Below, one piece after another: positions 51,007 through 63,560 of a stretch of 64,000 nucleotides of DNA. The notes below the pieces were generated by a model, which worked only from the letters and a program-made list of their open reading frames with translations, had not been told where the DNA came from and did not search any database. Numbering within the stretch: the stretch's first letter is position 1; the number at the start of each line of letters is the position of its first letter. The position numbers and the translations under genes were made by a program. The stretch is taken from assembly GCF_003966655.1 (NCBI RefSeq), contig NZ_AP018795.1:2435501-2499500 (forward strand), read 5' to 3'. The DNA comes from Acidithiobacillus ferridurans. Lineage in GTDB: Bacteria > Pseudomonadota > Gammaproteobacteria > Acidithiobacillales > Acidithiobacillaceae.

Positions 51007-51876
51007 ATGCTGACTGATACCAAGCTGCGAAACCTCAAGTCGCGGGACAAACTCTACAAGGTGAACGATCGCGATGGTCTCTATGTGGCCGTTACCCCTG
51101 CTGGAGCGATCTCGTTCCGCTATAACTACGCGATTAACGGGCGGCAGGAGACCATCACCTTTGGTCGTTATGGCATCGGCGGCATTACCCTGTCGGAAGC
51201 CCGCGTGCAGCTTGCCGAGGCCAAGAAGCTGATCGCGGGTGGCAAGTCGCCGGCAAAAGAAAAAGCGCGAGACAAAGCGCGCGTCAAAGATACTGAGACA
51301 TTCGGTGCGTGGGCAGAAAAGTGGCTGCGCGGCTACCAGATGGCCGACTCCACCCGTGACATGCGCCGGGCGGTCTACGAGCGCGAGATAAAACCGAAAT
51401 TCGGCAACCAAAAGCTGGTCGAAATTACCCACGAGGACTTGCGGGCACTCACTGATGCCATTGTGGAGCGGGGCGCGCCGGCTACAGCCGTCCATTCCCG
51501 CGAAGTGGTGTTACAGGTCTACCGCTGGGCCATCGAGCGCGGCCAGAAGGTCGAGAATCCGGCGGATCTGGTACGCCCCACGGCCATTGCCAAGTTCGAG
51601 CCGCGCGACCGGGCGCTGACACCGGACGAGATCGCGCTGATGTATCAGTACATGGAACGCATCGGCACCACGCCTTCCATTCGGGCTGCGGCTAAACTGC
51701 TGTTGCTGACGATGGTGCGAAAGAGTGAGCTTACCAAGGCGACGTGGAGTGAGATCAATTTCAGCGAGGCCCTGTGGATTATTCCGAAAGAGCGGATGAA
51801 GCGGCGCAATCCGCATCTGGTGTTTCTGTCCAGGCAGGCGCTGGATATTTTTATTGCCTGAAGTTTAGACATACAG

Positions 51877-52005: not shown

Positions 52006-53328
52006 ATGCCCTTTCATCGTCTCGTTGCCCTCCGCCTCTCGGAGTGGATTTCCTACTTTCTGACGGTCGTGCCGCCCCGCTCGCGGCGCAGTTTTGTGGA
52101 GCTGCTTTGCGGTTGCCTGATCTCGCCCGAAGGCTGGGTCACCCGCGCCCTCAGCAGCATCTCCCTCCGCTGCCACTGGACCACCTATTACAAACTCCTG
52201 GAGCGTGCGTCCTTGCGTACACAGGCGTTGGCCATAACCCAGGTACGCTGGCTCCTGCAGTCCTTGCCCAAGCCCCTGATCGTCGAGTTAGTCGTCGACG
52301 ACACGATGGTCCTGCGGCACTCTACCAAGGCCCCAGGCGCGGCCATCCGCTTCGACCACAGTCATAAGCACAACCGCCCCAGTTATGTCCTCGCCCAGAA
52401 TTGGGTGGGTCTGGCGTTGACCCTGCGTACCCGTTCCGGCAAAGCCATTTCCTTTCCCATCCGCTTGCGCCTGGTGCCCAGTACCGGCAACACCCACAAG
52501 CTGAAAATCGCCGGAGCATTGCTGCGCGCCTTTATACCCCACATCCCCGTACCCGTCCGGTTGCTCACCGATGCTTGGTTCATGCGGCGGCGCCTGCTCT
52601 TGCCCCTGTTGCGTCAGCACGGCCTGCAGCCGGCAGGCCAGTTCATCGGCCAGGTGCGCAAAGATACTGTACTGCTCCGCGACCCACCGCCGAGGACATC
52701 CCAACGCGGGCGTCCTCGGATATATGGAAACAAGTACACCGTGGAAGACATGGCTGCGCTGCCCACCGAGATCGTCTCTCTGGATCTCTATGGGAAACGG
52801 CAGAAGGTCCGTCTTCAATCCATCATCGCCAATGCACGATTCCTGAACGGCCATCCGGTCCGTGCCGTATGGAGTGCGATCTACGATGAAAAGCATCATC
52901 GGTGGTCTCCCACCCGCCTCTATCTCGCTTCCGAGACGGATCTCACCGCCAGCGAAATCGTCGTCCTCTACAGCAACCGCTGGCAGATCGAACCGATCTT
53001 CCACAATCTCAAACGCTGGTGGGGCATCCATAACCTCTGGCAGCAAAAACGCACCGTCTTGGAACGCTGGATGCAAATCCGCTGCATCGCTTGGTCCATG
53101 GTGCAACTCCTCGCCGAAACCCTATCCGAAGATTTCCCCATGACTGCAGTAGCGCCCTGGCGTATCGCTACTCCTGTCACCGCAGGACTCATGGCCCAAT
53201 GGCTTCATCTGCAATTTCTGCGGGTTCCATTCTGGAAGGGCTACGACCCGAAGTCCGGGAAATTCCAGTGCCCCGCCCCCGCCTTTTGGGCCGATACCGA
53301 TGACCCACCCCGCAAAAAGGTCGCCTGA
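52006..53328 (+). CDS. IS4-superfamily DDE transposase
   Basis: 440 residues. ELVVDDTMVLRHSTKAPG (Asp 1), RLLTDAWFMRR (Asp 2) and VVLYSNRWQIEPIFHNLKRWWGI (Y-x2-R-x3-E-x6-K type signature with Glu) define an IS4-like transposase; subgroup uncertain. It appears intact, so the element may still be active. Confidence 0.85.
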   Translation: MPFHRLVALRLSEWISYFLTVVPPRSRRSFVELLCGCLISPEGWVTRALSSISLRCHWTTYYKLLERASLRTQALAITQVRWLLQSLPKPLIVELVVDDTMVLRHSTKAPGAAIRFDHSHKHNRPSYVLAQNWVGLALTLRTRSGKAISFPIRLRLVPSTGNTHKLKIAGALLRAFIPHIPVPVRLLTDAWFMRRRLLLPLLRQHGLQPAGQFIGQVRKDTVLLRDPPPRTSQRGRPRIYGNKYTVEDMAALPTEIVSLDLYGKRQKVRLQSIIANARFLNGHPVRAVWSAIYDEKHHRWSPTRLYLASETDLTASEIVVLYSNRWQIEPIFHNLKRWWGIHNLWQQKRTVLERWMQIRCIAWSMVQLLAETLSEDFPMTAVAPWRIATPVTAGLMAQWLHLQFLRVPFWKGYDPKSGKFQCPAPAFWADTDDPPRKKVA

Positions 53329-53757
53329 CTCAATCCTGCTCCACATTTACTACGCCATATCGCCACACATAGAAGCTGGCGAGGAGGCTGCATGTCTAAA
53401 CTTCAGTTTTTATTGCTTTGAAGACCTTTTCTGGCGGATCGGAGTATGTGCTGCCGTCGCGGTATGATTCGGATACGCCAATGAGCAGCGCAACGCTCAA
53501 TCAAGTGCTAACGTTGACGTACCGGCTTGCGCAAAAAGAGGGGAAGACCCTCGCCAAATTCGGTCCGCACGACCTGCGGCGCACGGCCAGCACGCTGCTT
53601 CATGAGGCTGGCTATAACACGGACTGGATCGAGAAATGCCTGGCGCATGAGCAGAAAGGAGTCAGGGCCGTCTACAACAAGGCCGAGTATCGAGAGCAGC
53701 GCATGTCGATGCTGCAAGATTGGTCGGACATGATTGACGAATGGACGCTGAAAAAAA

Positions 53758-53985
53758 TTACGAAGTGAGCCCAGGCCGTGTCGCCGGTATATTATTGGAT
53801 CGCCGAGCTTCGATCCACTGATCGACCTCAGCAAGATCCCAAGCGACATTTCGGCTGGTGAGCGCTATGCGGCGAGGGAACTCTCCACGCTTTTCCAAAT
53901 TAAAAATCGTTCTCTCTGATAGCGGTATCATCGCCAGCAACATTTTCCGATTGATTAATACCTTGTGGACAGGCTCATTATTCAT
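53758..53985 (-). CDS. AlpA-family excision/regulatory protein
   Basis: 75 residues from ATG 53985 (behind AAAGGTG); GTG 53994 is an alternative. The MerR-like winged helix reads INRKMLLAMIPLSERTIFNLEKRGEFPRRIALTSRNVAWDLAEVDQWIE, the AlpA/Cox pattern found beside P4-type integrases. It is likely an excisionase or an integrase activator. It converges on the integrase gene. Confidence 0.82.
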   Translation of the reverse strand: MNNEPVHKVLINRKMLLAMIPLSERTIFNLEKRGEFPRRIALTSRNVAWDLAEVDQWIEARRSNNIPATRPGLTS

Positions 53986-54986: not shown

Positions 54987-55130
54987 ATGTTTATGATCTG
55001 TGGATGGTCAACTTATAAGGGGGCGCTGCGCAAGCGAACGATGGGCAAAAGTAAACTGGCGCAGGCCGGTTCGGTGGACTGCTGGCGATACCTAAAAGTC
55101 AGATGCAAAGTAGCTTGGTCTTTCATTTGA
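54987..55130 (+). CDS. Possible 47-residue basic peptide
   Basis: A frame (MFMICGWSTYKGALRKRTMGKSKLAQAG...) divergent from the HAD operon, sharing operator 3 as a possible control site. It is rich in Lys and Arg. There is no ribosome site at good spacing and no family match, and its end overlaps the antisense repressor gene by 8 nt. Otherwise 54959-55122 is empty. Confidence 0.22.
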   Translation: MFMICGWSTYKGALRKRTMGKSKLAQAGSVDCWRYLKVRCKVAWSFI

Positions 55131-55848
55131 TCGCCTTGATCAACATGTTCGTGCTCTCCACGACACGGCCCAGGACCTTGATGTGCTCCAGATCCTGCGC
55201 CGGGACTACCACGTCCGGTTCCGATGGGTTAAAAGACCGGACGATCAGACCGCCATCGTAGCGCCGAAATAGAAACTTGACCGAGATCTGGTCCCCATAG
55301 CGCAGCAGGTAGACGCTCCCGTCTGTTACTTGCGTTGTTCCCATCTCGACGGTGATCCAGCTCCCATCGCTGATAAAGGGGTCCATGCTGGAACCGCGTA
55401 CCTTGTATCGGATCAACTTGTCCGCTTTGAGCCCATAGCGCCGTACCCATTCCAGGGAATAGCGGAAGCGGCGTTCTTCTTCCACGGGTTCCGTGTGGAT
55501 GCGGTTTCCTGCGCCAACTGCGACGTTCAGCGCGGGGATCTCGATCTCGCCATCATCCAATGGCTCTTCGGGATGGTAAGCGACGACCGGGACAGCGCCT
55601 GAGAGGGCGCCGCTCGCTGAGTGGTCGTTGTCCATCCAGTTTACGGGGAGATTGAGGGACGCCTCAAGCAGCCTAGCTGATTCGTCGTCAATATTTCGGC
55701 TCCCCTTGGCCGGGCTTTTCCTGGCCTTTGCTGCCCACTGTTGAACTTGCCCTGGGCTTCTCTGGATACGGCGTCCAATCTCGGCCTGCTTATACCGACC
55801 GAGAAGGGCCAAGAAGTTTTCAAGCCGAATTTCGTCAATAGATTTCAT
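55123..55848 (-). CDS. CI-like repressor with S24 self-cleavage domain
   Basis: 241 residues from ATG 55848 (MKSIDEIRLENFLALLGRYKQAEIGRRIQRSPGQVQQWAAKARKSP), an N-terminal helix-turn-helix. The C-terminal S24 peptidase has the nucleophile in VRGSSMDPFISDGSWITVE and the Lys in ISVKFLFRRYDGG. It should keep the element silent and be inactivated by RecA-stimulated self-cleavage, as in lambda. The longer frame to 56022 runs across the operators and is rejected. The ATG lies 6 nt after TATAAA, so the message may be leaderless. Confidence 0.88.
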   Translation of the reverse strand: MKSIDEIRLENFLALLGRYKQAEIGRRIQRSPGQVQQWAAKARKSPAKGSRNIDDESARLLEASLNLPVNWMDNDHSASGALSGAVPVVAYHPEEPLDDGEIEIPALNVAVGAGNRIHTEPVEEERRFRYSLEWVRRYGLKADKLIRYKVRGSSMDPFISDGSWITVEMGTTQVTDGSVYLLRYGDQISVKFLFRRYDGGLIVRSFNPSEPDVVVPAQDLEHIKVLGRVVESTNMLIKAIK

Positions 55849-55856
55849 GTTGTATT

Positions 55857-55873
55857 TATAGCCTGTTGCTATA
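55857..55873. promoter_or_regulatory. Repressor operator 1 (over the repressor's own promoter)
   Basis: TATAGC-CTGTT-GCTATA, 17 bases with perfect 6-base arms. Its left arm overlaps the TATAAA box of the repressor gene on the minus strand, so occupancy would autorepress it. Confidence 0.7.
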
Positions 55874-55897
55874 GCATCGGCGACATGCGCCACGCTG

Positions 55898-55928
55898 TTG
55901 ACGATTGTATAGCTATGAGCTATATAAT
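55898..55928 (+). promoter_or_regulatory. Operator 2 and cro promoter
   Basis: TTGACG (55898-55903) and TATATA (55921-55926, 17-bp spacing; TATAAT is offset two bases) form the cro promoter. TATAGC-TATGA-GCTATA (55908-55924) fills the spacer between them. A repressor bound here would block cro and the whole replication operon. Confidence 0.7.
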
Positions 55929-55935
55929 GGCACCC

Positions 55936-56166
55936 ATGGACATCCGAACTTACGCAATCAAGCATGGTGGCTTCCCTCGCATTGCCGAGATTCTTGGTTT
56001 CAATGCCGAGTTCTTGCGCCAAGTAGCCAAGGGCAGACGCCGCGTTTCAGCAGAAAACGCGGCACGAATTGAGCTACTCACCCACGGCACCGTCACCCGC
56101 GAGGAACTCCGCCCCGACATCTTCGGCCCGCTCCACCATGAACCTCAAGACCGAGGGGCCGCATGA
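55936..56166 (+). CDS. Cro/YdaS-type DNA-binding protein
   Basis: 76 residues, MDIRTYAIKHGGFPRIAEILGFNAEFLRQVAKGRRRVSAENAARIELLTHG, a Cro/YdaS-like helix-turn-helix of the 'antitoxin YdaS' family, encoded divergently from the S24 repressor. ATG 55927 is an alternative start, inside the -10 region. ATG 55936 sits about 7 nt after the -10 box and has no ribosome site, suggesting leaderless translation. It should act as the anti-repressor switch protein. Confidence 0.75.
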   Translation: MDIRTYAIKHGGFPRIAEILGFNAEFLRQVAKGRRRVSAENAARIELLTHGTVTREELRPDIFGPLHHEPQDRGAA

Positions 56167-56291
56167 GCGCATTACCTATCACCACTTCTATGCCAGGAAA
56201 CGGGGGCACCCGGATTGCGCTTCCAGCCGCGCGATCACTCCTGGCACCTATTCGAAGGGCTGGAAAGGCTGGAAGAGACCATGCCGGGTGA
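56163..56291 (+). CDS. 42-residue peptide overlapping cro
   Basis: ATGA overlap with the cro stop, and an 11-nt overlap with the next gene, place a short frame (MSALPITTSMPGNGGTRIALPAARSL...) in the operon chain. It may be a real small protein or only a coupling device. No similarity recognised. Confidence 0.35.
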   Translation: MSALPITTSMPGNGGTRIALPAARSLLAPIRRAGKAGRDHAG

Positions 56292-57276
56292 TGCACAAAA
56301 ACCAGATTGTTCAGCACTTCCGCCCCCACCAGTACCAGCAGAAATTGATCTGCGTTCCTATTGCTGGATGAAGCTGGACCTGAACCGACTTCATTCCAGC
56401 GACTTCATCCACTTGGCCAGTAATGAAGAGTTCGGCGCAGCGGTAAAGCTGTGGACCGAATCCATGCGGCAAGTGCCCGCTGGCAGTATTCCCAACGATG
56501 ACAAGATACTGGCATCTCTTGCTGGTTATCGTGGATCCCCCCGACGATGGATGAAAGTCAAGGCTATTGCATTGCATGGCTTCTCCCTTTGCTCCGATGG
56601 CCGCCTGTACCATCCCGTGCTTGCGGAAATGGTACTGGATGCCTGTGGCAACAAGACCCAACAGCCACCATCAAGCCCTTCGGATCCACGCGCCAAGGAT
56701 CGTGAGCGCCTTCGTCGCTGGCGAGCGGAACAAAAGGCCAAGCAGGGGAGCAGCAAATCTACCATGACTGAGGACGAGCACTCTACCCAGGTCGATGAAA
56801 CGGCTGAAACGTTTCAAGGCCGTTTCACTGAAACGTTTCCTGAAACGGCTGAAACGTTTCATATAAGAGAAAGAGAGAAAGAAAGAGAGAGAGAAGAAAC
56901 GTTAAATAGCGTTTCAGAAACGGCGGATGAAACGTTTCAGGAAACGCAGTCAACAGAATCCTCCCCAATGCCGCCAGCAACCCGCGAAGGCACGTTGTGC
57001 AAGAAACTACGGTCACTTGGCGTCCGCGCAGCTCCCCACATGGTCATTGTGCATGAGATGTGCGCCCACCATTCCGACGAACACATTCTGGCCGCAGCGG
57101 AAATCGCTCTGGAGAAAAAAGGCGCGGGCATTCACGTCGGCTACATCGCCGCGATGCTGAAAGACCCTGGGAAATCTTCAGGGAAAAACGGAAAGCATAA
57201 ACAAGCAGACGCTCCACCCAACCGTTCTCTCTTGCTCCCCCTTGTCGTTGGACAATCAAACCATATTCGCCTGTAG
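56281..57276 (+). CDS. DUF1376-domain replication-type protein with intragenic iterons
   Basis: 331 residues from ATG 56281 (ribosome site GGAAGAG). Residues about 22-125 form a DUF1376 domain: YCWMKLDLNRLHSSDFIHLASNEEFGAAVKLWTESMRQVPAGSIPNDDKILA...WMKVKAIALHGFSLCSDGRLYHPVL. This domain is common in phage replication regions. A low-complexity linker (ETAETF... then REREKEREREE) is encoded by the iteron and purine-rich tract. The C-terminus (GVRAAPHMVIVHEMCAHHSDEHILAAAEIAL) resembles primosome-type initiator tails. The gene directly before dnaC plus the internal repeats parallel lambda gene O and its origin. Confidence 0.78.
   Translation: MPGDAQKPDCSALPPPPVPAEIDLRSYCWMKLDLNRLHSSDFIHLASNEEFGAAVKLWTESMRQVPAGSIPNDDKILASLAGYRGSPRRWMKVKAIALHGFSLCSDGRLYHPVLAEMVLDACGNKTQQPPSSPSDPRAKDRERLRRWRAEQKAKQGSSKSTMTEDEHSTQVDETAETFQGRFTETFPETAETFHIREREKEREREETLNSVSETADETFQETQSTESSPMPPATREGTLCKKLRSLGVRAAPHMVIVHEMCAHHSDEHILAAAEIALEKKGAGIHVGYIAAMLKDPGKSSGKNGKHKQADAPPNRSLLLPLVVGQSNHIRL
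56805..56939. repeat. Intragenic iteron array, candidate replication origin
   Basis: Palindromic TGAAACGTTTCA occurs at 56805-56816, 56850-56861 and 56928-56939, with an 11-base copy at 56829-56839. Additional half-sites GAAACGG or CGTTTC lie at 56797, 56821, 56842, 56910 and 56916. A strand-biased purine tract (56866-56899, almost only A and G) sits between copies and could be the unwinding element. Confidence 0.65.
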
Positions 57277-57286
57277 GAGACTTATC

Positions 57287-58111
57287 ATGACCATGCCGAA
57301 AAAGTCTGAGCGCAAGCATCCGCCATTGGCACACGCGGGCGATGTCGCCAAAGGCCTGCTGGCCCGTTGGGGATTCGATCCTGATAATGTGGCGATCCTA
57401 CCTGACCGCCATCCACAGTACCGAGCGTGTGAACGACATGGACGCTATCCGATTTCCATGGTGGATGAGCAGGATGTCATCCGGTACATGGCGCCAGTCT
57501 GCCCGGTGTGCGCGGCGGAGCAGGCGTCGCGTCGGCTCATGGAGAGCGCGGCCATTCCAAAGCGGTACATGGGCTGCGGTTTCGACAACTATGTGGTCGA
57601 GGTCGCCGGTCAGCAAACGGCTCTCGATGTCTGTCGGGACTACGCAGATCATTTTGAGGACCGTGCCTGTAAAGGATCCTGTCTTATCCTCTGTGGGAAT
57701 CCGGGCACGGGAAAAAACCATCTGGCGTCTGCTATTGCTCAGGCCGTTCTGTCCAAAGGGCACAGCGTGCTCCAGGTTACGGCTTACGACATCATCGCCC
57801 GTATTCGCCAGACCTGGCAGCGGGGGGCCGACAATAAGGCCGAGCTCGACGTTATCCGCGAATTTGCGGAGGCGAGGCTACTCATCATTGATGAGGTCGG
57901 GAAAACCTTTGGCAGCGATGGAGAGCGGGTACATCTCTTCGAGGTCATCGATCACCGATACCGCGATCTGAAGCCGACCATCATCCTGTCCAATGAAAGC
58001 ATTGCTGGCATAGAGAAATACCTGGGATCGGCGGCCTTCGACCGGCTTTGCCAGAATGGCGATCTACTGCTCTTTGACTGGAAAAGCCATCGTCGGGGGG
58101 GAGCACTATGA
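57287..58111 (+). CDS. DnaC-like helicase loader
   Basis: 274 residues. An N-terminal cysteine motif (CERHGR...CPVC) is followed by an AAA+ domain. Walker A is GNPGTGKNHLASAIA with the Lys-Asn-His variant that E. coli DnaC also has. Walker B is ARLLIIDEVGKTF, and sensor I is TIILSN. It should load DnaB helicase at the element's origin. ATG 57287 follows AGGAGA; a longer frame begins at 57242. It overlaps the next gene by ATGA. Confidence 0.9.
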   Translation: MTMPKKSERKHPPLAHAGDVAKGLLARWGFDPDNVAILPDRHPQYRACERHGRYPISMVDEQDVIRYMAPVCPVCAAEQASRRLMESAAIPKRYMGCGFDNYVVEVAGQQTALDVCRDYADHFEDRACKGSCLILCGNPGTGKNHLASAIAQAVLSKGHSVLQVTAYDIIARIRQTWQRGADNKAELDVIREFAEARLLIIDEVGKTFGSDGERVHLFEVIDHRYRDLKPTIILSNESIAGIEKYLGSAAFDRLCQNGDLLLFDWKSHRRGGAL

Positions 58112-59298
58112 ACACGCATCTGCAGAGCGACTACAGTGATTCCTCAGAAGAAGCCGCACCCAGGCAAAAGCCTCTTCCTGTGCGCCATGGCCGCGCTCGA
58201 AACACAACCGGAAGCATGGCTTTTTACCTGATTGACCTTGGACCTTTTTTCTCCGAACCCAAGCAATTCCTGGAGGATTTGCGCATGACGGATTTTGCGC
58301 CCAAGGGATACGATTGCAGCGTGCAGGTAGCTATCCGCCTGATGCGCTGGGCGCAGAGTATCCGGCTCACCCCACGCCAAAATCATGTGATGGAGCAGGT
58401 CGTATCCGAAGCCATCCGGCGTGGTACGGCGATCATCTTGTCAAAAATCGTAGCGGCGGAATGGTCTATACCAGATCATCGTGGCGATCACCATGACTTG
58501 GCCAAATCCGCAGCAACCAAGGCGCTACAACATTTCTCCGAGAAGCACGATCTCAGCAACGTGCCGCATCCTAACATTGCCACATTTGTTGAGGTGCATA
58601 CCCGATTTGCCTCACGCGAAGCGTTGGAAGATTTCATTTACCGGAAGCCAATGGAATCCGAAGCCAAGCGCCCGCAGGACGCTGTGTTCTCGAAAGCCTT
58701 ATTGGAAAGGGCTATCCGACAAAAAAGATCCGAACTCAAGAAACATACTGGAGAAACGCGCCAGAAAAAATTGCGGGAACTGGAAAAACTGGAAGCGACG
58801 CTTCACGGAACCCGAACAGAAGTACGCCTGGAATATGCGCTCGAAGAGCGGGGTGAGCACGAAGTGCGCGGCAGCAACGAACGCCTGTCTCCAGAAGATC
58901 ATCTCTCCATTGCGGTTGACGATATGGATATTGATGAGGACGGCGACTATGGAATACCCGCCGATCATCGTGAGTTTCTGGAGATGCTCATTCTCGTGGG
59001 GAAAAAAGAAATTGCCGCCAAGGAATTGATACCGTACCTGGTCGAAGCGAGAGAATATCGCGCTATTCTCGGGCTACTGCGCGTGTTGAGCAAAGCCGGT
59101 GACGACATTGAATCCTCGTGCCTTCGTGAGTTGCTGGGCAACCGCGCGTTGACGGACATTCGCAAGCAGATCCTGCGCGTAAACCGGGATGATGCCTGCG
59201 AGGTGGTGTCTCTTCTTGACTCATGCAAAGCGTACCTTCGGGGTGAAAGTGATGGATACGAAGTAACGCTGGCGGCGTTGCAGGTTGCTTCCGTATGA
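58108..59298 (+). CDS. Hypothetical protein of the replication operon
   Basis: 396 residues, not recognised. An N-terminal globular part (about 40-190) includes FAPKGYDCSVQVAIRLMRWAQSIRLTPRQNHVMEQVV. A charged coiled coil follows (about 200-255: ALLERAIRQKRSELKKHTGETRQKKLRELEKLEATL), with an acidic stretch VDDMDIDEDGDYG and a helical C-terminal domain. ATGA overlaps on both sides tie it to dnaC and the adenine methylase, so a role in replication initiation or in element maintenance is likely. Confidence 0.7.
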   Translation: MNTHLQSDYSDSSEEAAPRQKPLPVRHGRARNTTGSMAFYLIDLGPFFSEPKQFLEDLRMTDFAPKGYDCSVQVAIRLMRWAQSIRLTPRQNHVMEQVVSEAIRRGTAIILSKIVAAEWSIPDHRGDHHDLAKSAATKALQHFSEKHDLSNVPHPNIATFVEVHTRFASREALEDFIYRKPMESEAKRPQDAVFSKALLERAIRQKRSELKKHTGETRQKKLRELEKLEATLHGTRTEVRLEYALEERGEHEVRGSNERLSPEDHLSIAVDDMDIDEDGDYGIPADHREFLEMLILVGKKEIAAKELIPYLVEAREYRAILGLLRVLSKAGDDIESSCLRELLGNRALTDIRKQILRVNRDDACEVVSLLDSCKAYLRGESDGYEVTLAALQVASV

Positions 59299-60248: not shown

Positions 60249-60737
60249 ATGGCTGGTGTGAACAGGATGATTTTGATGGGGCACCTGGGCAAAGACCCGG
60301 AAATGAGATACATGCCGGATGGTACGGCAAATGCGAGCTTTAGTGTTGCCACATCCGAGTCCTTTAAGGACAAAGAAGGGAACAAACAGGAACGCACAGA
60401 GTGGCATCGTGTGGTTCTCTGGGGCCGCATTGCTGAGATTGCAGGCGAATATCTGCGTAAAGGGAGCCAGGCGTACATTGAGGGGCGGATACGCACGCGC
60501 AAGTGGACCGACAAGGAAGGGCAGGAGCGATTCACCGCGGAAATTGTTGGGGACCGTCTCCAGCTGATCGGTGGTCGAGGCAGCAACACGCCAGAGGATA
60601 AGGATTCTGCGCCACAGCATGGCGGTGGCAGTGATGACATGGGAACCCCGCCGATGGACGACGATGGGATCCCGTTCATCACCAGCGCAGAAATTCTCTG
60701 CCAACCGCGCGCCTTGCTGCGCCGTGTTCGGTTTTAA
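60249..60737 (+). CDS. ssb: Single-stranded DNA-binding protein
   Basis: 162 residues with a full OB fold: [68 protein letters not shown]. The acidic tip MDDDGIPF, normally the very C-terminus, is followed by 19 further residues ending ALLRRVRF. The usual partner docking through a terminal Phe would therefore be lost or changed. It serves replication of the element. Confidence 0.92.
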
Positions 60738-60756
60738 TCCGAGCAAGGGCCATCCT

Positions 60757-62478
60757 ATGCTGACGAATTACCGGGAGATCCGCCATTTTCACTTGTTCTG
60801 CGGCCTTGGCGGCGGTTCCGCAGGCTTCAACCGTGGTCAGGCTCGCGTCGGTTCCATGCGGGCCCGTTACCGTTGCCTGGGCGGTGTGGATTCTGATCAG
60901 AGGGCCGTCGCGGACTTTTCGCGACTGGCCGGCGTGCCTGGGACCGTGCTGGATCTCTTCGACCGGGATCAGTACCGCGCCTTTCACGGCGAGGAGCCGC
61001 CTGCGGGTTGGCGCGAGGCGACGTCGGCGGACATCCGCAAGGCGGCGGGCAATGAGCGGCCCCATATCGTCTTTACCAGCCCGCCGTGCAAGGCGTTCTC
61101 CGGACTCCTGTCCGAAGGCAAGAGCAAGACCGAGAGATACCAGGCTCTCAACCGGCTCACTGTGCGCGGCATTTGGCTGACCCTGGAGGCATGGAAAGAC
61201 GATCTCCCCGAGTTTGTGATTCTGGAGAACGTCCCACGGATACAAAACCGTGGTCGGCACCTACTGGATCAGATTGGTGGGCTGCTGCGTCGCTATGGGT
61301 ATGCGGTGGCCGAGACCACGCACGATTGCGGCGAGTTGGGCGGCCTTGCCGAAACGCGCAAGCGGTTCCTGATGGTGGCCCGACACATGGAAAAGGTACC
61401 GCCTTTCCTCTATGAGCCGGAAAAGCGCCCCTTGCTGGCCGTGGGCGACATTCTGGGCCGGATGCCCATGCCTGGAGATCCCTCTGGCGGCGCCATGCAC
61501 CGAGTCCCTTCTCTGCAATGGAAGACCTGGGTGCGTCTGGCCTTCGTGGAGGTCGGCGGCGATTGGCGATCACTCAACAAACTGGCGGTCCAGGATGGAA
61601 CCCTCAAGGATTATTTGATTCTGCCGGAGCGCCGCGTCCACTACCTGGGCGTCAATGCCTGGAATGCCCCGAGCGGGACCATTTCGGGGCGTGGCGGTGT
61701 CACCAATGGGCGCTACGCTGTAGCCGATCCGCGTTTCCAGGGGACCGCTGAGTATGGCCAGTACGGTGTCCGGGATTGGGAAGACAGCATCGGTGCTATC
61801 AGCGGGCAATCCGCGCCTGGCGGTGGCCGGTACGCGGTCGCCGACCCGCGATCAGGCTACAAGAGCACTACGCACCAGAACATATATCGCATCGTCCCGT
61901 GGGACAGCGTGAGTAAAACCGTCGTGGGCGCATCCCATGTGGCTGGCGGTGCCCTCGCTGTAGCTGATCCCCGCACGGGCCTGACCCGTACCAAAGGCGA
62001 TAATTATCTCAAGGCGGCCCATTACGGTGTTGTGCCGTGGACGGATGCCTGCGGGGCGGTATCGGCGGCAGCCGGACATGATAACGGCAAGTGGAGCGTA
62101 GCTGACCCGCGCGCTTCCTGTTTTTCGACCGTGAATGAGGCGGACGAAATGCCCGCTCAGAGCGCCAAGCTGGTGGCCATCAAACGCGCTCTGGACAACA
62201 CCTGGCATCGGGCATTCACCACTCTGGAGCTGGCGGCCCTGCAAGGGCTGGTGGACCCCGAAGAGCATCTGGAACTGGAAGGCCTCAGCGATTCGGCCTG
62301 GAGGGAACGCATTGGAAACGCAGTTCCCCCGTCGGCGGCACAGGCCATCGCCGCGGTGATGGGTCAAACACTCCTGCTGGCGTGGTCCGGAGAGACGTTC
62401 ATGCTCTATGCCCTGCCCATCTGGGTGCAGCCGGTGGCGGTGGTACTGAGCGTCAGTCCTGGGGTTAAGGCTCAGTGA
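60757..62478 (+). CDS. C5-cytosine DNA methyltransferase with VADPR repeats
   Basis: 573 residues from ATG 60757 (AAGGG 7 nt upstream); a longer frame running antisense-free through ssb is rejected. Motif I is FCGLGGGSAGF, motif IV is TSPPCKAFSG with catalytic Cys111, motif VI is ENV (157-159), and motif IX/X is GNAVPPSAAQAIA. The target-recognition region carries four roughly 40-residue repeats each ending VADPR (Val at 322, 361, 402, 448). The specificity is unknown. The stop overlaps the next start (GTGA). Confidence 0.9.
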   Translation: MLTNYREIRHFHLFCGLGGGSAGFNRGQARVGSMRARYRCLGGVDSDQRAVADFSRLAGVPGTVLDLFDRDQYRAFHGEEPPAGWREATSADIRKAAGNERPHIVFTSPPCKAFSGLLSEGKSKTERYQALNRLTVRGIWLTLEAWKDDLPEFVILENVPRIQNRGRHLLDQIGGLLRRYGYAVAETTHDCGELGGLAETRKRFLMVARHMEKVPPFLYEPEKRPLLAVGDILGRMPMPGDPSGGAMHRVPSLQWKTWVRLAFVEVGGDWRSLNKLAVQDGTLKDYLILPERRVHYLGVNAWNAPSGTISGRGGVTNGRYAVADPRFQGTAEYGQYGVRDWEDSIGAISGQSAPGGGRYAVADPRSGYKSTTHQNIYRIVPWDSVSKTVVGASHVAGGALAVADPRTGLTRTKGDNYLKAAHYGVVPWTDACGAVSAAAGHDNGKWSVADPRASCFSTVNEADEMPAQSAKLVAIKRALDNTWHRAFTTLELAALQGLVDPEEHLELEGLSDSAWRERIGNAVPPSAAQAIAAVMGQTLLLAWSGETFMLYALPIWVQPVAVVLSVSPGVKAQ

Positions 62479-63560
62479 CGTCTATCTGCCATGTGGTGAG
62501 CGTATCAGGAGGCAAGGACTCGACAGCGACCTTGCTGCTGGCTCTGGAGCGCGTACCCCGTGAGCAGATTGTGGCGATTTTTTGCGATACGGGCAATGAA
62601 ATCCCCATTACCTATATCTATCTGGACGATCTGGAGCGTCATCTGGGTATCAGGGTCCATCGCCTCAAGGCGGACTTTTCTGCGGAGATCGCCGCCAAGC
62701 GAAGATTTATCGCCCGCGACCAACGGACCAATCGCGAATATCAACGGGTACCTGTATTGGACGTATATGGGAACCCTGTCCCATCCAGGGACTCCCAGGG
62801 TCGCATTCACTATCGCACAGTTATTCGCAAAGGGATTAAACAGCAAGAAATTGTCCCGAAAATGCGAAAGGCGCATGGTAAAAAGGTGCGCTGGTCTAAC
62901 AAGGCCAAGAGGCGGGCGCTCACAGTCTTACAGCCAACCGGCAACCCATTCTTGGATCTGTGCTTATGGAAAGGGCGCTTTCCGTCTCGCATGGCCCAAT
63001 TCTGCACCGAAGAACTCAAGCGCAATATCGCCGTAACTTTTCAACTCGATCTGATTGACCACGGCTTTTCGGTCGTCTCCTGGCAAGGGATTCGCCGTGA
63101 TGAATCCCAGAATCGCCGTAACGCGAAACGCCTGGAACGTATCGGCCCAAAGCTATGGGCTTTTCGGCCTCTGGTGGACTGGACCGCACAACAGACCGTG
63201 GATTTTGTACGCTCCCAGGACTGCCCCTTGAATCCTCTTTATTCTCAGGGGCAAAGCCGGGTTGGGTGCGTGTGCATCAATACCAACAAGCAAGGTTTAG
63301 CCCAGACCGCTTATCGCTATCCAGATGAAATAGACCGCATAGAAGATTGGGAATGGTTAGTTGGGCAAGCATCCAAGAGGGGGTTTTCCACCTTTATGTG
63401 TGATGCCGACGATCGTAAAGATCGTAGGGCCATTTTTGCCGACCTTAACATCCGATCCCGTGTGGAGTGGGCGATGGGCGGTAACGGTACCATGGATCTG
63501 TTTGCTGACGTTCCCATAGATATTCCAGTTTGCGCGTCTGCCTATGGGCTGTGCGAATAA
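62475..63560 (+). CDS. PAPS-reductase-family (PP-loop) protein
   Basis: 361 residues from a GTG start. The PP-loop VSVSGGKDSTATLLL (S11-GGKDS), AIFCDTGNE and a C-terminal GCVCIN cysteine pair place it in the phosphoadenosine-phosphosulfate reductase/DndC-like superfamily common in phages. It lacks the reductase tail C-terminus, so assimilatory sulfate reduction is unlikely. ATP-dependent nucleotide or thiolation chemistry is more plausible given the two methylases beside it. Confidence 0.8.
   Translation: MTSICHVVSVSGGKDSTATLLLALERVPREQIVAIFCDTGNEIPITYIYLDDLERHLGIRVHRLKADFSAEIAAKRRFIARDQRTNREYQRVPVLDVYGNPVPSRDSQGRIHYRTVIRKGIKQQEIVPKMRKAHGKKVRWSNKAKRRALTVLQPTGNPFLDLCLWKGRFPSRMAQFCTEELKRNIAVTFQLDLIDHGFSVVSWQGIRRDESQNRRNAKRLERIGPKLWAFRPLVDWTAQQTVDFVRSQDCPLNPLYSQGQSRVGCVCINTNKQGLAQTAYRYPDEIDRIEDWEWLVGQASKRGFSTFMCDADDRKDRRAIFADLNIRSRVEWAMGGNGTMDLFADVPIDIPVCASAYGLCE

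Follow-up and report, generated by a model that had tools for sequence, protein, structure and literature searches.

Origins Within Initiator Genes

Several described replicons keep their origin inside the gene of the initiator. In phage lambda, oriλ lies inside gene O, and the helicase-loader gene, P, follows directly (excerpts of PMC5043065 and PMC7466680). The RepA_N initiators of plasmids pSK41 and pTZ2162 have a winged-helix N-terminal domain, and their binding sites are central in the rep gene; there the origin encodes the central linker of the protein, and in the hybrid pPR9 the N-domain and the origin were swapped together (excerpts of PMC5703833). RepA_N initiators are found mainly in Firmicutes (excerpts of PMC7145576). 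The mechanism considered below is already known, because RepA_N plasmids and lambda both keep the origin inside the initiator gene and the pPR9 swap has been described. Phages KIRK and MD8, too, have been described as holding a putative origin or repeats within a replication gene (excerpts of PMC7924643 and PMC8508860). The Rac prophage has an active origin, oriJ (excerpts of PMC3945230); the excerpts returned by our literature search contained no map position for oriJ and no statement placing it within ydaU.

An earlier, sequence-only reading of the DNA analyzed here proposed a lambda O/P-like replication module with its origin inside a gene of the DUF1376 family, and remarked that such proteins have no well-established role as initiators. 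In the literature mentioning DUF1376, as excerpted and with most subscription journals outside its coverage, no initiator or origin proposal was found. However, PHROG families 22470 and 3992 are already annotated 'replication protein' and 'primosomal protein'; these names give a replication role, and no origin, iteron or binding specificity was attached to them in the scan output. All 56 members of one alignment (A2) match both families. Within the literature searched, the DUF1376 assignment, its scale and the cassette exchange reported below appear undescribed.

The DUF1376 Locus of Acidithiobacillus ferridurans

The stretch analyzed (the window) comprises 64,000 nucleotides of the 2.92-Mb genome of A. 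ferridurans. It contains a prophage-like module in the order S24-type repressor (on the minus strand), YdaS/Cro-like frame, DUF1376 gene, DnaC-like gene, a gene without family, D12 methylase, single-strand DNA-binding protein (SSB), C5 methylase and PAPS-reductase-like gene (Table 1). For the DUF1376 gene the ATG at 56281 was chosen as start over a TTG at 56215; the stop codon occupies 57274-57276. The best six matches to this DUF1376 family among named genomes were all from Acidithiobacillus.

Table 1. Features of the replication module, in window coordinates.
Feature	Position	Strand	Evidence
S24 peptidase-type repressor, divergent from the replication genes	55123..56022	-	PF00717, 3.5e-15
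Open frame with YdaS/Cro-like regulator	55741..56166	+	PF15943, 5e-12
DUF1376 gene, proposed replication initiator, 331 aa	56281..57276	+	Pfam PF07120, E=1.8e-7; PHROG 22470 'replication protein', 3.3e-32
N-terminal winged-helix domain, about residues 28-125, proposed iteron-binding	56362..56655	+	AlphaFold2 pLDDT mostly >90
Left iteron array including half-sites 56796, 56821, 56841	56796..56861	.	Half-site listing
Iteron, full palindrome TGAAACGTTTCA	56805..56816	.	Exact-match listing
Iteron TGAAACGTTTCC, one end base off the palindrome	56829..56840	.	Exact-match listing
Iteron, full palindrome TGAAACGTTTCA	56850..56861	.	Exact-match listing
35-nt purine-only run, proposed unwinding region	56865..56899	+	Base composition
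Right-hand half-sites and iteron past the purine run	56895..56946	.	Half-site listing
Iteron, full palindrome, 3' of the purine tract	56928..56939	.	Exact-match listing
C-terminal helical domain, about residues 233-297, proposed partner-recruiting	56977..57171	+	pLDDT mostly >90
DnaC-like AAA+ helicase loader	57287..58111	+	PHROG 50, 2.8e-67 (scan on a longer frame starting at 57242); E. coli DnaC 6qel, E=1.1e-30
Single-strand DNA-binding protein, possible accessory	60249..60737	+	PF00436, 7.5e-38

Several observations concern the surroundings of the module. The 396-aa gene directly 3' of the loader (58108-59298) has no Pfam or PHROG family. The same genome holds a second prophage-like copy (G000:C1:2288000-2304000, locus L195) with integrase, S24 repressor, DUF1376 gene, DnaC-like gene, a relative of the 396-aa gene, D12 methylase and SSB; its DUF1376 gene has GAAACG iterons, as in the window. 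Relatives of the 396-aa gene, about 70% identical, occupy the same position in L195 and in locus L003. Upstream of the module, a phage integrase is interrupted by a DDE-transposase insertion (PF01609, 8.9e-21; 51007-51861, 52006-53328 and 53418-53768), the C-terminal integrase piece coming after the transposase. The C5 DNA methylase with its repetitive middle and the PAPS-reductase-like gene (60571-63560) possibly serve to modify DNA or to take over the host. Over 50-64 kb, the cumulative GC skew is lowest at 56000-58000. This turn was dropped as origin evidence because the genes diverge at the same spot and the skew is confounded by gene direction.

The AlphaFold2 model of the DUF1376 protein contains two folded domains separated by a low-complexity linker of low predicted confidence. 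The N-domain (mean pLDDT 90) is a winged helix by the order of its elements. The protein belongs to DUF1376 with 31.9 bits against a curated cut-off of 30.1 for PF07120, and DUF1376 gave its only hits in a Pfam scan at E up to 1; neither RepA_N (PF06970) nor Phage_rep_O, which we take to be the lambda O family, was matched at that threshold. The same limit yielded nothing for the C-terminal region (56890-57273), a PHROG scan of the protein gave no O-like hit, and NCBIfam has no name for it or for YdaU of the Rac prophage. Profile searches of solved structures returned no PDB chain at E up to 1 for the full-length alignment and two chance-level rows (E 0.23 and 0.46) for the N-domain alignment. 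In Foldseek searches, no PDB row reached E<=0.001 with the full-length model, and the first four rows for the N-domain model were RepA_N initiator chains, all weak (E 0.22-0.57 overall). A solved structure of lambda O was absent from the rows listed, which counts neither for nor against the assignment. The leading rows 4pta, 5kbj and 4pql had E values of 0.22-0.32, 4pql giving the best Z (5.1; 81 aligned, rmsd 3.4). MarR- and CRP-type regulators are also among the structural neighbours of this domain.

The sequence-only reading had described four copies of GAAACGTTTC with half-sites flanking a purine-only tract in the DUF1376 gene, and an exact search of all 64,000 bases bore this out: there are four copies, every one within that gene. 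TGAAACGTTTC starts at 56805, 56829, 56850 and 56928, and seven additional GAAACG half-sites start at 56796, 56821, 56841, 56895, 56910, 56916 and 56940. A 21-bp unit is repeated exactly at 56796 and 56841. The A+T content at 56862-56900 is 67%, compared with 47% for the whole DUF1376 gene, and all iterons, half-sites and the purine run lie within its reading frame. When up to two mismatches were allowed, 22 matches were found in the window against a shuffle mean of 12.1, and 3 of 100 shuffles reached 22; the pattern with mismatches is thus only slightly out of the ordinary, and the signal lies in the exact cluster.

In its layout the locus resembles lambda O/P, which likewise has iterons in the middle of the initiator gene, a purine-asymmetric A+T region adjoining them and a helicase-loader gene next. 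It differs in that the N-domain is DUF1376 with no lambda O hit in the Pfam scan, the loader is DnaC-like instead of a lambda P homologue (P-like in at least 11 of 134 relatives), and the iterons flank the purine tract on both sides. With RepA_N plasmids it shares the winged-helix N-domain and the mid-gene position of its putative binding sites; however, there is no RepA_N hit, the fold match is weak and DUF1376 is found in proteobacterial phages. The gene order is similar to that of Rac (divergent repressor, ydaS, DUF1376 gene, DnaC-like gene, with ydaT following ydaS in Rac), where ydaU also has internal repeats and an A+T/purine tract, but the iteron and the O-like C-terminal part differ.

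Repeats in Excess of Coding Requirements

Repeats were scored as repeated 8-mer pairs and compared with versions of each gene in which synonymous codons had been shuffled, so that protein sequence and codon usage stayed unchanged. The window DUF1376 gene holds 141 such pairs, compared with 31.0 +/- 8.5 in shuffles (z=12.9; 0 of 200 reach 141), and inverted pairs alone give z=10.5. In the same test the positive control, lambda O, gave z=5.8, and the negative control, lambda P, gave z=1.1.

Two gene sets were examined. Set 1 drew on the window, genus relatives, IMG/VR contigs, and phage and plasmid records, with 103 genes reduced to 75 without near-duplicates. Set 2 came from named genomes, 80 loci being reduced to 69 after 3 short and 8 redundant ones were dropped. 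Other genes in the DUF1376 loci were used as controls (159 in set 1 and 193 in set 2). The organism's own genome and genus contributed 16 loci (L001, L002 and L004-L017, L001 being the window gene), of which L004, L005, L010, L014, L016 and L017 are absent from all sets and L011, a second, short DUF1376 frame beside L015, was left out. Such side-by-side DUF1376 matches with one short frame were seen in two genus genomes (G004:C143:2648-3383, L011/L015; G015:C81:1415-2070, L014/L016).

The sequence-only reading had suggested looking for internal palindromic repeats in other DUF1376 genes. Internal repeats were found in most of them: z exceeded 3 in 48 of 75 genes against 14 of 159 controls (set 1) and in 42 of 69 against 21 of 193 (set 2). 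The remaining 27 of 75 and 27 of 69 genes (54 of 144 together) had z<=3, with z about 0 for L028 and L059, and one control gene in set 2 (z=31.5) scored higher than all DUF1376 genes. When inverted repeats alone were counted, z>3 was reached by 25 of 75 genes versus 9 of 159 controls in set 1, and the result was weak in set 2 (8 of 69 versus 11 of 193; p=0.011). The repeats are concentrated at residues 125-225, in the linker that joins the two folded parts of the modelled protein. In set 1, words present at least three times cover 7-8% of positions at residues 175-224 and <1% before residue 125, and the peak in set 2 is in the same place. The iteron words vary by phage and include TGAAACGTTTCA, CGTAACGTTACG, TTGTCCC..GGGACAA, CTGTCAC..GTGACAG, TTCCGGCGGAA, GAAACGCGTTTC and others. 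Repeats in the DUF1376 linker are a family trait.

The linker is also biased toward purines on the coding strand. The purine score exceeds the pyrimidine score in 73 of the 75 genes of set 1, and the bias is above that of synonymous shuffles (p<=0.05) in 41 of 75. An (AGGGAS)n tract is present in 64 of 144 genes, where it is read in frames 0, 1 and 2 in 13, 41 and 10 genes, respectively, and translated as ER/DR, GQ/GE or TG repeats. Frames differ even among closely related genes: L007, L002 and L009, all close to the window gene, have AGAAGAAACGT in frame 0, whereas the window gene and L003 have it in frame 2. The end of the window's 35-nt purine run is likewise read in another frame in L007, L002 and L009. 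A clear tract is present in 90 of 144 genes; there, A+T content averages 54% over the 15 bases 3' of the tract, compared with 37% for the genes. The commonest repeated word outside the tract was mostly upstream in 62 of 87 genes and mostly downstream in 23, so that the recurrent order of iterons followed by tract is a tendency. As evidence against itself, the sequence-only reading had named homologues encoding the same linker with different codons and no repeats. The opposite was seen: the DNA elements persist although the encoded amino acids differ, even through use of another reading frame.

Exchange of N-Domain and Iterons as One Cassette

Natural chimeras revealed which part of the protein the iterons accompany. 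In two Acidithiobacillus pairs, L006/L003 and L012/L013, the N-domains are 56% and 51% identical, respectively, the C-domains are 96% identical in both, and the iterons are GTAACG versus GAAACG. Counted in blocks of 50 columns, DNA identity stays at 32-68% until the iteron array ends and is at least 84% past it in the C-domain part, the last block of L012/L013 excepted. Both iteron types occur in Acidithiobacillus ferruginosus CF3, in one gene each: L113 has 14 GAAACG and no GTAACG, with a protein identical to that of L013, and L115 has 6 GTAACG and 1 GAAACG, with a protein identical to that of L006. In a Pseudomonas pair, L022 (phage Alize) and L088 (IMG/VR), the genes are 98-100% identical from just past the purine tract, the iterons before it are unrelated, and the break falls in the tract.

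The same relation was seen in pair counts over 144 genes (145 less one duplicate, L006 being the same as L115). Words holding GGGAC and their kin were left out, which keeps out the purine tract and also hides TTGTCCC-type iterons. The top iteron word is common to 40 of 43 pairs with N-domain identity of at least 75% and C-part identity of at least 60%, versus 5 of 19 pairs with N-domain identity below 60% and the same C-part limit; four of those five involve L015. For unrelated C-parts, it is common to 67 of 162 pairs with N-domains at least 75% identical and to 739 of 7664 pairs below 60%. The iteron type follows the N-terminal domain and not the C-part, and the breakpoints of the chimeras lie at the origin elements or directly behind them. 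By computation, N-domain and iterons are exchanged as one cassette.

Partners of DUF1376 Domains and the E. coli Bridge

The sequence-only identification of the gene following DUF1376 as DnaC-like was confirmed (Table 1). This AAA+ ATPase scores 143.7 bits against the NCBIfam DnaC equivalog, under its cut-off of 357. Its Walker A motif, GTGKNHLA, had been called a rare GKNH variant, a description that does not hold, as E. coli DnaC (PDB 6qel) and YdaV carry the identical motif. Of 144 genes, 138 had an identifiable next frame, and 134 of these frames were scanned after L015, L002, L007 and L009 were dropped. Among the 134 next genes, at least 13 encode a DnaC-like loader, at least 11 a P-like loader and at least 10 a DnaB-like helicase; these are lower bounds because the frame choice was crude. 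The largest loader family accounts for at least 13 of the 134.

YdaU of the Rac prophage is a DUF1376 protein (Pfam, 2.7e-26) whose residues 112-259 match 'replication initiation O-like' phrog_678 (2.5e-24). Its gene contains internal TGTTCAAAC repeats (z=3.8) followed by an A+T-rich/purine tract, and the adjoining ydaV is DnaC-like. A ydaU match was present in 1,492 E. coli genomes, from which 40 evenly spaced rows were sampled. In 15 of them the match begins only at nt 485 or 497 (the C-part; a frameshifted copy from E. coli M3, L198, is still among them), and in 3 only nt 45-506 match. Of the others, 19 cover at least 96%, 1 has an IS3 insertion and 2 match other parts. The match edges fall inside the tract 3' of the ydaU repeats (nt 465-515). 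The row with the IS3 insertion, H64, was considered as an N/C swap and rejected; the insertion lies in ydaU, and the row was not counted.

One row of each partial kind was examined closely. In UC4316 (L196, 1508-2969), an N-domain 95% identical to that of YdaU is joined to a DnaT-type DNA-binding domain, and the gene after this fusion encodes a lambda P homologue (PF06992, 3e-15). In EC17CM7 (L199, 1068-1859), an N-domain without Pfam hit is found on a C-part 84% identical to that of YdaU, and the gene has its own repeats (z=4.4). The origin-in-gene anatomy is thus seen outside DUF1376 too. By fusions and neighbours, DUF1376 domains are tied to O-like C-parts (YdaU) and to lambda P homologues. 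YdaU shares the anatomy of the window gene, and E. coli forms the bridge to lambda.

Proposed Mechanism and Alternative Explanations

Very probably, the DUF1376 gene encodes a phage replication initiator and contains that initiator's own origin. On the best reading, DUF1376 would be the winged-helix origin-binding domain of lambda-O-like initiators, with the DnaC-like neighbour loading host DnaB. We infer DNA binding, dimer formation, melting, contacts with loader and DnaB, and origin activity as follows. The N-terminal winged helix would bind the TGAAACGTTTCA palindromes in the linker-encoding DNA, probably as a dimer, and several bound copies would form a complex straining the adjacent A/G-only tract until it melts. 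The C-terminal helical domain would then recruit the DnaC-like protein of the next gene, which would load host DnaB, and the phage SSB would coat the opened strand. The lambda O/P-like module that had been proposed is supported in its central point, an origin inside the initiator gene, by the repeats, frame changes and chimeras; the likeness is incomplete in that the loader is DnaC-like and not a P homologue, and some DUF1376 genes are repeat-free.

Other functions for the palindromes are improbable to different degrees. They may be operators through which the DUF1376 protein or another phage regulator controls transcription of the replication genes, with the origin elsewhere. Palindromic sites and a winged helix would suit a repressor, as would the MarR- and CRP-type structural neighbours, but the sites are mid-gene, about 515 bp past the start codon and beside a purine tract as in lambda ori. 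Replication partners also argue against operators: DnaC-like, P-like and DnaB-like next genes number at least 13, 11 and 10 of 134 loci, UC4316 pairs the DUF1376 domain with a P homologue, and YdaU and EC17CM7 have a common C-part despite different N-domains. We consider this explanation unlikely. Less likely still is a partition, incompatibility, packaging or recombination locus for a different protein; the breakpoints of cassette exchange are indeed located here, but the iteron type tracks the DUF1376 domain and not the C-terminal part, and array plus purine tract match the anatomy of lambda O (excerpts of PMC5043065).

In the least credible alternative, the DNA repeats simply reflect a protein linker that is itself repetitive (ETAETF, EREREK, GQGQGQ). 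The low complexity and low predicted confidence of the linker fit such an origin of the repeats, yet they lie far above protein-preserving synonymous shuffles and the same DNA is found in different reading frames; on these two results, protein-driven repeats were rejected.

With the initiator reading preferred, many related phages appear to have the same layout with different site sequences. It is likely, though held with less confidence than the assignment of the window gene, that DUF1376 is a large unnamed proteobacterial-phage family of origin-binding domains, each with its in-gene origin as a cassette. Cassettes of many iteron types would recombine, in or just after the tract and iterons, onto different C-parts, each suited to a partner that is DnaC-like, lambda-P-like or DnaB-encoding. 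The oriJ of Rac would then be one of these origins, located within ydaU.

Implications

The initiator assignment would provide a concrete role, and a DNA target that can be read from sequence, for a domain of unknown function present in the phages and prophages of many proteobacteria, E. coli K-12 among them. A single open reading frame would encode a protein and also contain the DNA that this protein probably targets, the DNA layer being strong enough for its sequence to survive a shift of reading frame. From genes with clear repeats the iterons can be read directly, and origins and probable incompatibility groups would become predictable from sequence. The natural chimeras offer ready specificity swaps for work on protein-DNA recognition. 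If the cassette reading is true, the replicon specificity of a prophage could be changed in one crossover.
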